A DNA stretch of 64,000 nt from Clostridia bacterium (GTDB lineage Bacteria > Bacillota > Clostridia > Oscillospirales > Acutalibacteraceae): contig JAFXCQ010000018.1 of the NCBI GenBank assembly GCA_017521425.1, forward strand, positions 1 through 64,000, written 5' to 3'. The notes under the pieces were generated by a model, which was not told the DNA's origin, made no database searches, and was given only the letters and a program-made list of their open reading frames with translations. Each line of letters begins with the position of its first letter. Within the stretch, counting starts at the first letter, position 1. This document shows, in pieces, positions 273 through 58,866 of this stretch. The position numbers were made by a program, and so were the translations under genes.

Positions 273-359
273 AACAACTCAGATAGTTGACCGAAATCAA
301 TTACCTGAGTTGTTGTTAATTTTACTTGTAACTTGCACACTTGCTACTTGCAACTGAGA
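273..359. repeat. hairpin plus heptad array (element A)
   Basis: AACAACTCAG (273-282) pairs with CTGAGTTGTT (305-314). The stem continues inward after one mismatch through TAGTTGA/TCAATTA to a CCGAAA loop. Ten bases later a 7-bp periodic array runs from 324 to 359: ACTTGTA, ACTTGCA, one extra base, ACTTGCT, ACTTGCA, ACTGAGA. This is the hairpin-plus-heptads layout of the elements at 18, 21, 22, 39, 44 and 58 kb, but the TTTCGG/ATTATAA boxes are not evident, so this is the least certain member. The rest of 118-343 holds only the REP hairpin at 167-191. Confidence 0.55.
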
Positions 360-18253: not shown

Positions 18254-18655
18254 TTGAGAATTGAAAGTTGAAAATTTCGGAAGTCCTACGGACTTGATTA
18301 TAACGATTATAGTTAGTCGAAACAGTGTAAATTTACACTGTTTCGATACCAAATCATATATTTGGTATCGAATTTTCTTTGAAAATTCGACTATAATCCT
18401 TTCATTGACTGTAATGCAAAATTGTATTTACGAAAAACAATTTTGCTAAAAGCCGATAAAATCGGCTTTTTCGAAACGCAACTGCGTTTCGACTAATTAC
18501 AATCATTATAATTATTGCTGAATAAAATAAAAAAAGTTCTATCATTTTTAGTAACGAATTACTTTAAATGATAGAACTTATCTTTTTGTTATTCAATTAT
18601 AATAGCCGACCGCAGGTCCCTTAACTATTCACTAAACTGAATGTTCGCATTCAGT
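18254..18655. repeat. composite heptad/hairpin element B
   Basis: Directly after a stop codon come three heptads (TTGAGAA, TTGAAAG, TTGAAAA, 18254-18274). A TTTCGG box and a mini-hairpin AAGTCC-TAC-GGACTT (18281-18295) follow, then TTGATTATAA. After an inserted block (18305-18504) the element resumes with ATTATAATTATTGCTGAATA and a core hairpin, AAGTTCTATCATTT/AAATGATAGAACTT (18534-18579). The right end has TTATAAT and a mini-hairpin whose minus-strand form is GACC-TGC-GGTC. A hairpin with a TTCG loop (AAACTGAATG/CATTCAGTTT, 18634-18657) covers the stop of the next gene. Nothing here codes for protein. Confidence 0.8.
18305..18504. mobile_element. palindrome-chain insertion inside element B
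   Basis: The block is bounded by inverted repeats GATTATAGTTAGTCGAAAC (18305-18323) and its near complement at 18486-18504 (17 of 19 match). It interrupts the sequence that is continuous in the 58-kb copy (TTGATTATAATTATTATTGA). Inside are six palindromes in a row: a perfect 30-base palindrome at 18317-18346, then 18344-18370, 18368-18390, 18416-18446, 18448-18470 and 18471-18492. Several are joined through TCGA. It has no coding capacity, so if mobile it is non-autonomous. Confidence 0.6.
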
Positions 18656-21263: not shown

Positions 21264-21316
21264 TAAACAATATGTAGGTTTTTATACAATTATATTGTGC
21301 AAAATGGTTAGAAAGT

Positions 21317-21506
21317 GGTCAGTAAGTCAGTGGTCAGTAAGTCAGTGGTCAGTAGTCAGTGGTCAGTGGTCAGTATTTTAATATTATAAAAACTACATTC
21401 TGTCATTCGAGTCTAAACTAAGATGAAAGAATGTAGTTGTTTTTATTGATATTTAATTATAATTACAAGTCCGTGAATTTCTGTATTCTGTGCTCTGCAT
21501 TCTGCA
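21317..21506. repeat. heptad/hairpin element C
   Basis: A left array of GGTCAGT heptads, some lengthened by one base, runs 21317-21374. The core hairpin AACTACATTCTGTCAT/ATGAAAGAATGTAGTT (21391-21438) has one mismatch and a following T run. The right array is four exact heptads TTCTGTA, TTCTGTG, CTCTGCA, TTCTGCA (21479-21506), five bases from the pilin stop. The core stem shares CTACATTCT-TCAT with element E at 39 kb. The sequence before the right array (ATTATAATTACAAGTCCGTG) looks like a partial form of the mini-hairpin end seen in element B. Confidence 0.75.
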
Positions 21507-22773: not shown

Positions 22774-22810
22774 GGTTTTTTTTGAATTTTTTTCAAAAAT
22801 TCAAAAAAAC

Positions 22811-23053
22811 AGGAATTAGGAATCAGAAATCAGGAACTAAAACCACTTTAACTTGTTATAAAAACAAAATCATTTCCCTAAATAAACAAAACAAGTTAAA
22901 AACAACTTATCATTTTAACTAATTTTAACTTTAAACAATAAGTCAACATTTCAATTGATTTACCATTTTTATCAGCAATAAGGGAGAAACTATTTCTTAT
23001 TTCCTATTTCCTATTTCCTATTTCCTATCTCCTGCTTCCTGACCACTGACAAC
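22811..23053. repeat. heptad-bordered element D
   Basis: The left array is AGGAATT, AGGAATC, AGAAATC, AGGAACT (22811-22838). The right array runs 22991-23053 as nine exact heptads: TATTTCT, TATTTCC four times, TATCTCC, TGCTTCC, TGACCAC, TGACAAC. It is the inverse of the left array (AGGAAAT read on the other strand). The interior pairs TTTAACTTGTT with AACAAGTTAAA. The right array reaches into the TAG stop codon of mutS2. No coding sequence lies inside. Confidence 0.75.
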
Positions 23054-33804: not shown

Positions 33805-35193
33805 ATGATTAAACAAAGAAAAATTGCAAAATATGTGCTTTTGCAAATCGTAACATTGGGCATTTATGGTCTTTTCTTCTGGTCTGACTGGACTGAAGAC
33901 CTTAACAAAATGTGCGAAGATGATGACAAAGAAAGTGCAAACTACATACTTGTATTTCTTCTTGATATATTCAGTTTCGGCATTTACTCTTTTGTCTGGA
34001 ACTATGGACAATCAGAAAGAATGTACAGAATTGCTCCTAAATACGGAATCCAGTTAAACCACGGCGGCTCTTACATCCTTCTTTTAAGAACAATTCTTTT
34101 CTTCTTACCTGTTGTAGGTTCGGTTGAAAAAATCAAATTATTCAACACTCTTGCAGTTGCTTACAATGCTTCACTCAGCGAAGAAGAAATTCTTGCAGCC
34201 GAAGCAGCAGAACAAGAACAAAAGAAATCTAAAAAAGAAATCAAAGCAGAAAAGAAGCAAGCTAAAAAAGAAGCTAAGTTAAATAGCAAAAACGAAAAGA
34301 AAGAGAAAAAATCTAAAAAAGCTCCTGTAGAAGATATTATTGTTCCAACAGAAGCAGGCATTTTACCTGGTATTACAGAAGACAAACTTCCTGATATCAC
34401 AACTATTCAAGTTCCAGTTGAAGCTCCTGTTGAAATTGTAGAAGAAGTAAAAGAAGAAACTCCTGTTGAAAGTTTTACTGCTCCTGTTTTTGAAACAGTA
34501 GAGCCAGCAACTTATGAACCCGTGAAAGAAGAAGCTATAGAAGAACCAGTCATTGAAGTTCCTGTAGTTGAAGAAGTTGTTGAAGCTCCTGTTGTTGAAG
34601 AAACAGAAATTGAATTTACTGAACCAGTTTACGAAATTGCAGACATTGAGCTTCCAAATTTTGATTTTGCAGAAAATGTTGCAGCAGAAGAACCTGCTAA
34701 AGCAGAGGTAATTGAAGAAGTAACATTCACAGAGCCTGCAGCTTATGAAGTTTCAACAGAAATTGCAGATATTACTTTCATTGACGATGAAAATTTAGTA
34801 CCCCCTGCAAAAGAAGATGTTTTAAAGCAAGCGGCTAAAACAGTTGGCACAAAAAGAACCGTTAAAGAAAAGGTTACTAAAGAAGCAACAGAAAATGAGC
34901 CTGTTGCTAAAAAGGCTACAAAAACTGCGAGCGATAAGGCTACTAAATCAACTAAAGAAAAGAAAGAGACTGCTAAAAAGGCTACAAAGTCAACAGCAGA
35001 TAAAGCAACAAAATCTACTACTAAAAAAGAAACAAAACCAAAAACAACAAAAGCAAAAAAAGAGGCTCCCGAAACAGTAGTTGAAGAAGTTAAGCTTGAT
35101 GATTTAACCTTCGGTGAAATTACATTTGAAGAAGTTGACCTTGGTGCAGATATTTTAAGCGAGATTGAAGAAATCAGCAAATCAAAGAAATAA
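33805..35193 (+). CDS. DUF4234-like membrane protein with long charged low-complexity tail
   Basis: The 462-residue protein starts with a membrane domain of four helices or so: IAKYVLLQIVTLGIYGLFFW, DIFSFGIYSFVWNY, LLRTILFFLPVVG. This is the repeated LGIYG-W pattern of DUF4234. From residue 130 the sequence is low-complexity: Lys/Glu-rich to 175, Pro/Val/Glu-rich to about 330, then Lys/Ala/Thr repeats (KKATKTASDK, KKATKSTADK) and an acidic end. The Lys/Ala/Thr part resembles histone-H1-like or nucleic-acid-binding tails; that is speculative. GGGGG lies upstream of the ATG. Confidence 0.75.
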   Translation: MIKQRKIAKYVLLQIVTLGIYGLFFWSDWTEDLNKMCEDDDKESANYILVFLLDIFSFGIYSFVWNYGQSERMYRIAPKYGIQLNHGGSYILLLRTILFFLPVVGSVEKIKLFNTLAVAYNASLSEEEILAAEAAEQEQKKSKKEIKAEKKQAKKEAKLNSKNEKKEKKSKKAPVEDIIVPTEAGILPGITEDKLPDITTIQVPVEAPVEIVEEVKEETPVESFTAPVFETVEPATYEPVKEEAIEEPVIEVPVVEEVVEAPVVEETEIEFTEPVYEIADIELPNFDFAENVAAEEPAKAEVIEEVTFTEPAAYEVSTEIADITFIDDENLVPPAKEDVLKQAAKTVGTKRTVKEKVTKEATENEPVAKKATKTASDKATKSTKEKKETAKKATKSTADKATKSTTKKETKPKTTKAKKEAPETVVEEVKLDDLTFGEITFEEVDLGADILSEIEEISKSKK

Positions 35194-39102: not shown

Positions 39103-39116
39103 ACGCACTTCAATAA

Positions 39117-39298
39117 TTGAGAATTGAAAATTGAAAGTTGAAAATTAAGGAAACGCTTTGCGTTTGATTAAAATTAAATATTTATAAAAAAAGACTACAT
39201 TCTATCATTTTAAGTTAAAGCTTTAAATGATAGAGTGTAGTTTTATTATAATGCCAACGCAGTTCCGAAATTTTCAATTTTCCATTCTCAATATTCAA
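39117..39298. repeat. complete heptad/hairpin element E
   Basis: This is the clearest copy. Left array: TTGAGAA, TTGAAAA, TTGAAAG, TTGAAAA (39117-39144). Left mini-hairpin: AAACGC-TTT-GCGTTT (39151-39165), then GATTAAAA. Core hairpin: ACTACA...TGTAGT, containing TTCTATCATTT/AAATGATAGA (39194-39241), then a T run. Right: TTATAAT, mini-hairpin AAC-GCA-GTT (39256-39264), CCGAAA, and right array TTTTCAA, TTTTCCA, TTCTCAA, TATTCAA (39271-39298), the inverse of the left array. The whole is an imperfect terminal-inverted-repeat structure of about 182 bp without coding capacity. Confidence 0.82.
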
Positions 39299-39301
39299 TT
39301 C

Positions 39302-44120: not shown

Positions 44121-44228
44121 TTCGGGTCTGCGACGCAATTATAATATTATAAAAATAGGTATGTAAAAAACGTTAAGTTTTTTACATACCATTCTTTTTT
44201 ACTTATGACTGACAACTAATAGCTAACT
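44121..44228. repeat. heptad/hairpin element F (acts as terminator)
   Basis: From 44121: TTCGG, mini-hairpin GTC-TGC-GAC (44126-44134), GCAATTATAATATTATAAAA, then core hairpin GGTATGTAAAAAAC/GTTTTTTACATACC (44158-44190) and a T run. The array is ACTTATG, ACTGACA, ACTAATA, GCTAACT (44201-44228), touching the TAG stop of the FN3 gene. The core with its T run is a good terminator for the transporter gene. There is only one mini-hairpin end and one heptad array, so the copy is asymmetrical. Confidence 0.78.
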
Positions 44229-56644: not shown

Positions 56645-58245
56645 TAAAAAAATTTATAGCACTCTCACTTTCTTTAATAATGGTAGTAACACTTTTTTCT
56701 GGTTGCTCACTTTTTAAAAATGCAGAGTTTCATATAGGATATATTGATGAAATAGAATCTTTAGACCCACTTAAAGCCACAGGCGACGCAGAAATTATTT
56801 CTGCAGTAAACTGCTTTGAAGGTCTTTTAAAATTTAATCAGAATGGTGAAATTGTACTTTCCGGTGCTACTAAATATTCCATTAGCGGTGACGGTTTGAC
56901 TTACACATTCTCTTTAAATCCTAAAGCAATTTGGTATATTGCAGAACTTAATGAAGGTATTTTAGGTGAAACCGATTTTGACAACAGAGTTACTGCACAC
57001 GATTATGTTTATTCTATAAAAAAGGTAATTGCAGAAAAATTACCCGGTTACGAAAACTACTCTTATATAAGAGGTGCAAGAGAATACTATAACGGTGAAG
57101 GCGATTTAGACTCAATTTTAGTCACCGCTCTTGATGATTTAACATTAGAAATTGTTTTAGTCGAGCCACACTCTGAAATTTTAAGCACATTAGCAGAAAG
57201 CTCTGGTGCTCCGTCAAGCGAAAAATTTGCTTCGCTCGTTGAGGGTGTTTATGGCACAACTGCGTCTTCTGTTATCTGTAATGGTCCTTACTACATTGCA
57301 GAAATCAACAAAGGTAAATCTCTTGTTCTTAAAAGAAACCCTAAATATAAAGGCAGAACTAAGGCAAACAATGCTCAGATAAACTTAAATTTACAAAAGA
57401 AACAAAAAAACATTGTAGAAAAATATGCAAGCAACTCTTTTGACGTTCTTTTAACAGACAGTGCAAACAGAATTGAAAACCCTAACGGTAAAATTACACC
57501 TGTAACAAATACTGTATGGGGGATTGTTTCTAACTGTTCAAAAGAAATAATGAAAAATGAAAACTTAAGAAAGGCTCTACTTTCTGCTATTGATTACTCT
57601 GTTATTTCCACCCCTAAATTTGCAACAGGTATTGCAACCAACGTTGTAGCACCTGACTATTTAGTTACTGAAAGACATTACAGTAAATACGCAGTAGATT
57701 CTGTCGGATTTGATTCAAGTGTTGACAAAGCAGAAGAATATATGATTTTAGCATCTACCCAGATAAAAGAATCAATAAATCTTAACATTTATGTACCAAT
57801 ATCGCTCGAAAACTCAATGAACATTATCTGCAATGGTTGGAAAGATTTATTTGGCGATGATGTAAGAACCAATATTGTTACCTTTGACATTGATGAATAT
57901 GAAACAGTTATTGAAGAAAATGACTATCACATTGCAATTTTGCCTATTTATTCAGACTCTTCAACTGCAGTTTCTGTTTTAAGAAGTATTTCTTCTGCGC
58001 CTTGTAATTTCACCGATAATTCTTACGAGTCACTTTTGAGGGCTGCAGAAATCTCTATAAAAGAACAACCAAAAGCAACAGCTATAAATGAATGTGAAAA
58101 GTACATAGTTTCAAGTGGTGTTGTTGTGCCGCTTTATTTATCTTCAACCGACCTTTACTTGAATGATGGTGTTACAGGCATTTACAACACAACAACAAAG
58201 AATGCAATCTATTTTAATCTTGGAGACAAAAAGAGTGAAAAATAA
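56641..58245 (+). CDS. peptide/oligopeptide ABC transporter substrate-binding lipoprotein (SBP family 5)
   Basis: The 534-residue protein has lipoprotein signal KKFIALSLSLIMVVTLFSGC. The OppA-like body contains IGYIDEIESLDPLKATGDAE, YTFSLNPKAIWY, TAHDYVYSIKKV, LKRNPKYKG and LRKALLSAIDYSVI. No permease or ATPase gene adjoins it; the next gene is VanZ-like. It may bind peptides for a transporter encoded elsewhere or act as a solitary sensor protein. Its ATG overlaps nth (ATGA). Confidence 0.9.
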   Translation: MIKKFIALSLSLIMVVTLFSGCSLFKNAEFHIGYIDEIESLDPLKATGDAEIISAVNCFEGLLKFNQNGEIVLSGATKYSISGDGLTYTFSLNPKAIWYIAELNEGILGETDFDNRVTAHDYVYSIKKVIAEKLPGYENYSYIRGAREYYNGEGDLDSILVTALDDLTLEIVLVEPHSEILSTLAESSGAPSSEKFASLVEGVYGTTASSVICNGPYYIAEINKGKSLVLKRNPKYKGRTKANNAQINLNLQKKQKNIVEKYASNSFDVLLTDSANRIENPNGKITPVTNTVWGIVSNCSKEIMKNENLRKALLSAIDYSVISTPKFATGIATNVVAPDYLVTERHYSKYAVDSVGFDSSVDKAEEYMILASTQIKESINLNIYVPISLENSMNIICNGWKDLFGDDVRTNIVTFDIDEYETVIEENDYHIAILPIYSDSSTAVSVLRSISSAPCNFTDNSYESLLRAAEISIKEQPKATAINECEKYIVSSGVVVPLYLSSTDLYLNDGVTGIYNTTTKNAIYFNLGDKKSEK

Positions 58246-58693
58246 ATCAACTTTCAAAAAAATCTATTTTGCAATTTCACTTGTAATAGTCATATTTCTT
58301 TTAATATTGATTTTTTGCCTTTCTCACGAAACAGGGGAAAAATCAACTGAAACAAGTGGCTTTTTCACAAAGCTTATAAATTTCTTATTACCATTTCCGG
58401 TTACTGAAGATGTTATAAGAACTTTAGCACATTTTTCAGAGTTTGCTTGTCTTTCGTTTTTTATGAACAACTTATTTGTTGCTTATAAAGACAAGCTTTC
58501 ACCCATCATTGCGTGTGCTTTATCCTTTTTCTATGCAATCACAGACGAAATTCACCAGATATTTGTACCTGACAGAGCCTGTCAGCTTCAGGATATGCTT
58601 ATAGATTTAGCGGGAATAGTTTCGGGAATGGCAGTGTATGTAGTGATTTACGCGTTAGTTAAAAAAGTGGCAACTTTAAGAATTGAAAATTGA
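58235..58693 (+). CDS. VanZ-family membrane protein
   Basis: The 152-residue protein has four helices or so and the VanZ signature AHFSEFACLSFFMNN, FFYAITDEIHQIFVPDRACQLQDMLIDLAG. GTG 58235 follows GGAG at nine bases; the earlier ATG at 58163 lies deep in the preceding gene and is rejected. The last codons (LRIEN, stop TGA 58691-58693) are made of heptad repeat sequence from element G, so the original C-terminus was replaced. VanZ is linked to low-level teicoplanin resistance, but most family members have unknown roles. Confidence 0.88.
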   Translation: MKNKSTFKKIYFAISLVIVIFLLILIFCLSHETGEKSTETSGFFTKLINFLLPFPVTEDVIRTLAHFSEFACLSFFMNNLFVAYKDKLSPIIACALSFFYAITDEIHQIFVPDRACQLQDMLIDLAGIVSGMAVYVVIYALVKKVATLRIEN

Positions 58694-58866
58694 AAATTGA
58701 AAGTTGAAAATTTCGGAAACGCTTCGCGTTTGATTATAATTATTATTGAATAAAAGCAACAAAAGTTCTATCATTTTCATTTATCGAAAATGATAGAACT
58801 TTTTTTCTAATATCTAACACCTAAAACCTAATACCTGTTTGCAACTATTATAATAGCGTCGCAGAC
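58683..58866. repeat. heptad/hairpin element G
   Basis: Left array TTGAAAA, TTGAAAA, TTGAAAG, TTGAAAA (58683-58710). TTTCGG and mini-hairpin AAACGC-TTC-GCGTTT (58717-58731), then TTGATTATAA. An 18-bp perfect core stem AAAAGTTCTATCATTTTC with its complement (58761-58803) and a T run form a strong terminator. Right array: TATCTAA, CACCTAA, AACCTAA, TACCTGT (58811-58838), then TTATAAT and mini-hairpin GTC-GCA-GAC (58858-58866). The right array sits between core and mini-hairpin here, unlike element E. Confidence 0.82.

Follow-up and report, generated by a model that had tools for sequence, protein, structure and literature searches.

Heptamer arrays of changing sequence border intergenic elements

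What are the short arrays that recur between genes in this Clostridia contig, always with a period of seven bases but with units that differ from place to place? The window (the whole stretch of DNA analysed, 64,000 nucleotides) had been described from its letters alone, in an initial annotation, as holding eleven such tracts around intergenic elements in which the unit changes while period and length hold. This description stands, and all eleven tracts lie where they had been placed (Table 1). By tandem-repeat or lag-7 scoring, six are strong (21314-21374, 22810-22838, 22990-23040, 39115-39146, 39269-39300 and 58681-58712), four are weaker (324-359, 18254-18274, 21479-21506 and 58806-58838; the first has 80% matches and overlaps the end of the ORF at 344-718), and that at 44201-44228 is marginal, under both the tandem-repeat and the lag-7 threshold.

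Table 1. Arrays, hairpins and modules of the window elements
Feature	Position	Strand	Basis or remark
Left period-7 array, five AATT cores, unit TTGAAAA	39115..39146	+	Repeat scoring
Left subterminal hairpin module GGAAACGC-TTT-GCGTTTGATTAAAAT	39147..39175	+	Sequence; module class recurs in other elements
Central hairpin ACTACATTCTATCATTT...AAATGATAGAGTGTAGT	39193..39242	.	Arms differ among copies yet remain complementary
Right subterminal module ATTATAATGCCAACGCAGTTCCGA	39245..39268	-	
Right array, unit TTTTCAA	39269..39300	-	Inverted copy of left array
Left array TTGAAAA, second element	58681..58712	+	Provides stop codon region of ORF 58163-58693
Subterminal hairpin GGAAACGCTTCGCGTTTGATTATAAT and central hairpin AAAAGTTCTATCATTTTC...GAAAATGATAGAACTTTT	58713..58805	.	
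Right array, different unit ACCTAAT	58806..58838	-	Looks chimeric with left array 58681..58712
Left array AGGAATT/AGGAATC	22810..22838	+	
Right array TATTTCC	22990..23040	-	Inverted partner of 22810-22838
Array GGTCAGT	21314..21374	+	
Array TTCTGCA	21479..21506	-	Across hairpin core from 21314-21374; unit unmatched to it
Left array TTGAAAA	18254..18284	+	Element core 18285-18620 with nested hairpins
Weak array ACTGACA/ACTAATA	44201..44228	-	After hairpin 44158-44191
Weak array ACTTGCA	324..359	-	Adjoins REP-like GAACCGTCCCCTG motif

We scanned 1.09 Mb of this genome, a rumen Oscillospiraceae assembly of 2.35 Mb (under half of it, with simple ORFs as genes). Period 7 gave 86 intergenic tracts, whereas the other periods between 3 and 21 gave 0-4 each; coding sequence held three period-7 tracts and second-order Markov control sequence none. 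Period 7 is therefore specific and the arrays are far above chance, bearing out the expected excess over shuffled or control sequence. Inverted pairing is general as well. With a partner defined by a match of 75% or more over 24 nt no further than 600 bp away, 45 of the 86 tracts have one in inverted orientation; the figure drops to 9 when units are permuted, and 7 tracts have such a partner in direct orientation. In the elements, inverted pairs of about 32 nt each flank small hairpins and a core, and the pairs noted initially at 39117/39271 and 22811/22991 are indeed inverted copies (39115-39146/39269-39300 and 22810-22838/22990-23040). Because their paired arrays differ in unit, the elements at 58681/58806 and 21314/21479 look chimeric, and no right array was found for the element starting at 18254. 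Units drift along individual arrays, and 102 of 121 arrays are purine-rich reading inward. Array length was initially given as mostly four units; five cores at 7-nt spacing (mode 32 nt) describe it better. The peak is at 29-35 nt, in 44 of 81 distinct unit classes, and some arrays are far longer, up to about 154 nt.

The left array of the 39115-39300 element reads AATTGAG AATTGAA AATTGAA AGTTGAA AATT and is mirrored by 39269-39300; between them lie the central hairpin and a pair of small ones, both of which end at or close to ATTATAAT. As RNA, the whole element folds into a single stem at -62.1 kcal/mol, against -25.1 for shuffled sequence (z -10.8). Small hairpins differ among copies with both sides changed (GGAAGTCC/GGACTT, GGAAACGC/GCGTTT, GGAAGGC/GCCTT, GGGACC/GGTC), and in the central hairpin the pairing between arms is 97.4% over 19 distinct arm pairs, against 89% after shuffling. 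Further near-perfect palindromes (e.g., CGAAACAGTGTAAATTTACACTGTTTCG) are nested in one element at 18285-18620, which folds at -122 kcal/mol. An Rfam search of the window gave no match. Elsewhere in the window, a 66-bp tandem repeat at 34905-35061 lies in the ORF at 33805-35193 and apparently encodes a lysine-rich repetitive tail.

Palindromic, intergenic elements in a genome with one Y1 (RAYT-type) transposase gene (C32:1340-1675) could be REP/RAYT-type mobile palindromes moved by that enzyme. We regard this as extremely improbable: the motif on either side of the gene, GAACCGTCCCCTG, is its own, neither period-7 arrays nor element modules flank it, and we set the enzyme aside as the mover. 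The same REP-like motif occurs at 360-395, where it adjoins the array at 324-359; since it also flanks the only Y1 transposase gene (locus L049 on contig C32 of this genome, G000), a second palindrome family is present.

Full-length elements carry an S23 gene between matched ends

At the site near 22.8 kb, the window has AGGAATT/TATTTCC arrays, the relative SIG595 (locus L100) has ACTTGCA-type arrays around a gene, SIG596 (L101) has yet other arrays, and SIG561 (L102) has no element. The SIG595 gene encodes a 116-aa four-helix-bundle protein (PF05635/TIGR02436; S23 or 23S_rRNA_IVP), namely S23, known mainly from the intervening sequences (IVS) of 23S rRNA; a single-sequence AlphaFold model of it was set aside at pLDDT 49. 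The full element consists of an array, a small hairpin, the gene for the S23 four-helix-bundle protein (PF05635, TIGR02436), a second small hairpin and the inverted array. The window copies are intergenic and without the S23 gene, with the central hairpin in its place.

Three of the five PF05635 genes in this genome lie between period-7 arrays. Among 86 S23 loci from this genus and from plasmids, the genus loci being related and not independent, arrays are found on at least one side at 50 and on both sides at 33, and more than half are without detectable arrays on both sides. Other periods from 4 to 14 gave both-sided arrays at these loci twice for period 8 and never for the rest. Period-8-like arrays were also seen by eye at an S23 gene of Gemmatirosa (L260), and at another (L280) the period that best fits arrays on both sides is 8. 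Across the pairs within elements, the left array agrees with the reverse complement of the right at 0.90, against 0.585 for shuffled pairs (maximum 0.658 of 200).

Of the 903 genes in the fetched sequence, 8 have period-7 arrays on both sides. Only the S23 gene at C7:106110-106472 has matched inverted ends (0.95); the other seven (0.39-0.69) stand between the ends of neighbouring, unlike elements, and no other gene was found as cargo between matched arrays among the 903. Unit similarity falls with S23 identity, from 6/7 at 80-90% to 4.2 at 50-60% and a background of 3.45 below 30%. The S23 genes, with dN/dS of about 0.01-0.2, are under purifying selection. Four S23 genes stand in a row within 5 kb at G342:C150:4002-8790, as if elements had inserted side by side. 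Phages gave no S23 match.

S23 elements at the genus sites share their subterminal modules with the gene-less window copies, and 10 of the 21 unit classes among gene-less elements are identical to S23-linked units from other genus genomes (expected 2.9, maximum 7 in 200 shuffles). The best reading of the window copies is therefore as gene-less, MITE-like members of the S23/IVS elements. The TTGAAAA group probably descends from the AATTAAG-type S23 element at C7:106110-106472.

Elements are present or absent as whole units

The proposed comparison of strains for whole-element presence or absence gave a positive answer: whole elements are present in some species and absent from others, with element-less sites in relatives. 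At three genus sites the element is absent from this genome and present in relatives, and at Nostoc plasmid sites H, R and T versions without the element exist, which are also without arrays. Site H is the cleanest: the version without the element reads ...GGTTCTAGGTTATGC..., and that with it ...GGTTCTA[AATCAGGAGTCAG...S23...CTTCTG]GATTCTAGTTATGC.... A candidate target-site duplication, also anticipated, is seen at this site alone, as a repeated TTCTA (perhaps 7 bp, GATTCTA), the other sites being too diverged.

Taken together, the period-7 arrays are very probably the inverted termini of widespread, very small S23/IVS mobile elements, judging from sequence comparison. If the arrays were instead passive microsatellites, made by slippage with an S23 gene merely inserting nearby, one would expect the drift of units along arrays and the variation in copy number seen among Coxiella strains (PMC4990558) and between Nostoc copies. 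This reading does not account for the enrichment of no period other than 7, ends that match as inverted copies, a five-unit mode over 81 unit classes, element-less sites without arrays, or matched ends at the S23 gene only among 903 genes; it is already disfavoured, and we consider it very improbable. Slippage or templated synthesis alone, as first suggested, likewise fails on the matched inverted ends, the five-unit length and the tie to one gene family. The earlier interpretation is thus partly supported; out of its sight were element-by-element end matching, the S23 gene in full-length members and the same structure in 23S rRNA genes.

Spread across phyla and into rRNA genes

S23 genes with arrays occur in six phyla. 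In Bacillota outside the genus, 12 of 31 S23 loci have period-7 arrays on both sides and 21 of 31 on at least one. In cyanobacterial plasmids, S23 splits cas6/cas4, cas10/cmr3 or ribonucleotide reductase genes, with arrays present; three such elements (L255, L257 and L261) lie inside CRISPR-Cas operons, twice between cas6 and cas4 and once between cas10 and cmr3. The initial parallel with cyanobacterial STRRs is a true one, except that their unit is not constant: arrays beside cyanobacterial S23 genes vary in unit. Arrays at S23 are also found in Treponema (Spirochaetota), Chlorohelix (Chloroflexota) and Monoglobus (hsdS/hsdR), and in Bernardetia (Bacteroidota) the S23-linked array is clear on one side. 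Three S23 loci (L265, L291 and L301) lie inside 23S (LSU) rRNA genes with period-7 arrays, on one side only at L301. For the Coxiella IVS, GACAGAT heptamers before the S23 start and excision by RNase III have been published (PMC4990558).

Arrays that often stand directly before the S23 start codon, as the Coxiella heptamers do (PMC4990558), and that are purine-rich on the sense arm could be TRAP-like regulatory sites, that is, RNA operators bound by S23 (or S1/Csp/CsrA) for translation control, with autoregulation at the adjacent S23 gene and the gene-less copies as a regulon; a translational role has been proposed for the TAACTGA repeats of Beggiatoaceae (PMC4679880). Operators of this kind would not be expected to form matched inverted pairs, to appear and vanish as whole units, or to lie also between convergent genes and in rRNA genes, and we think this reading unlikely. 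Since matched ends and whole-unit presence or absence are left unexplained, a purely regulatory role is insufficient, as is plain slippage.

A proposed mechanism

S23 has been reported as a homopentameric toroid (PMC4990558), and the homologous structure entries 2gsc and 2rld have five chains each. Under the S23/IVS mobile-element reading, the S23 homopentamer would bind the purine-rich array with one 7-nt unit per subunit, and the period would therefore be fixed, the length set at five units and the unit sequence free. Such reading by the ring, unit by subunit, is possible, at odds somewhat short of even, and the match of five units with five subunits may be no more than a numerical coincidence. 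The unit sequence would drift together with the cognate S23 protein, and either selection on the stem or intrastrand copying from arm to arm may maintain the complementarity of the ends. Pairing of the two arrays would fold a transcript or single strand into one long stem, much as in rRNA intervening sequences, and an element inserted beside or within a transcript would then do little damage. Gene-less copies would depend on S23 protein in trans. No transposase or reverse transcriptase was found travelling with the element, and the breaking and joining chemistry is probably supplied by the host.

An RNA-based retroelement would provide another route, in which S23 acts like the Avd protein of diversity-generating retroelements (DGRs) and the folded RNA is copied into new sites with the help of a reverse transcriptase supplied in trans. 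One S23 protein shows weak similarity to Avd (NF033474, E 1e-13, under the cut-off of that profile), and S23 has the orientation of its neighbours at 78 of 83 tandem sites, as it does in the three rRNA copies that we examined. The codirectionality is near that of ordinary genes (88.7%), so that it proves nothing alone about an RNA step and suggests read-through expression at most. RVT_1 is absent from this genome and from 18 of 22 genus genomes, including several with about ten S23 genes, and we set reverse transcriptase aside as partner or mover; the retroelement is an improbable reading. Taken as one statement, the S23/IVS identity of the elements with the mechanism proposed above has, in our estimate, a probability of roughly 0.6.

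More tentatively, and with doubts that outweigh our confidence, the elements may form a class whose ends are defined not by a fixed sequence but by period (seven bases), number of units (five) and complementarity to each other, and are read by an element-encoded five-subunit ring protein; such a class, in at least six phyla, would unify rRNA intervening sequences, STRRs and gene-less intergenic hairpins. Already known are the heptamer excess in some genomes, the inverted GGGAATC pairs of Xanthomonas, the TAACTGA repeats and the Coxiella heptamers; in the open-licence literature we found no paper that links heptamer arrays to S23 in general. For decades, heptamer repeats have been described from cyanobacteria, Xanthomonas and elsewhere with no origin assigned, and many phyla have annotated S23/four-helix-bundle genes to which no function is given; the tie between the two offers an explanation for both and a direct test. 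One unit per ring subunit, if true, would be a mode of recognition in which period and copy number outweigh base sequence.

Comparison with known systems

In REP/RAYT systems a Y1 transposase bears the same palindrome as the repeats, whereas the RAYT locus here has a different motif. DGR Avd belongs to a homologous four-helix-bundle family (by a profile match below cut-off), but the present elements have no reverse transcriptase, template repeat or variable repeat.

Cyanobacterial STRRs, the GGGAATC heptamers of Xanthomonas, for which inverted pairs were noted (PMC4692102), and the TAACTGA repeats reported from Beggiatoaceae (PMC4679880) are, like the window arrays, intergenic tandem heptamers; those papers treat them as stand-alone repeats, unlinked to S23 or to element ends.

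The 23S rRNA IVS with an S23p ORF (Coxiella burnetii, Leptospira) likewise have an S23/PF05635 gene between complementary ends that form a single stem, and in Coxiella heptamers were reported in the 5' part of the IVS (PMC4990558). L265, L291 and L301 are rRNA copies with period-7 arrays. The IVS are known almost only in 23S rRNA, whereas the present elements are common both inside operons and between them, many copies have no gene, and the matched arrays are specific to each element. The window copies share the stem-forming complementary ends of the IVS, without the S23 gene and outside 23S rRNA.

MITEs resemble the window copies in being short and gene-less, with inverted ends, presence or absence at orthologous sites and a likely gene-bearing parent (here C7:106110-106472). 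They differ in that MITE ends are one transposase-recognised sequence, whereas those of the present elements vary freely yet remain paired.
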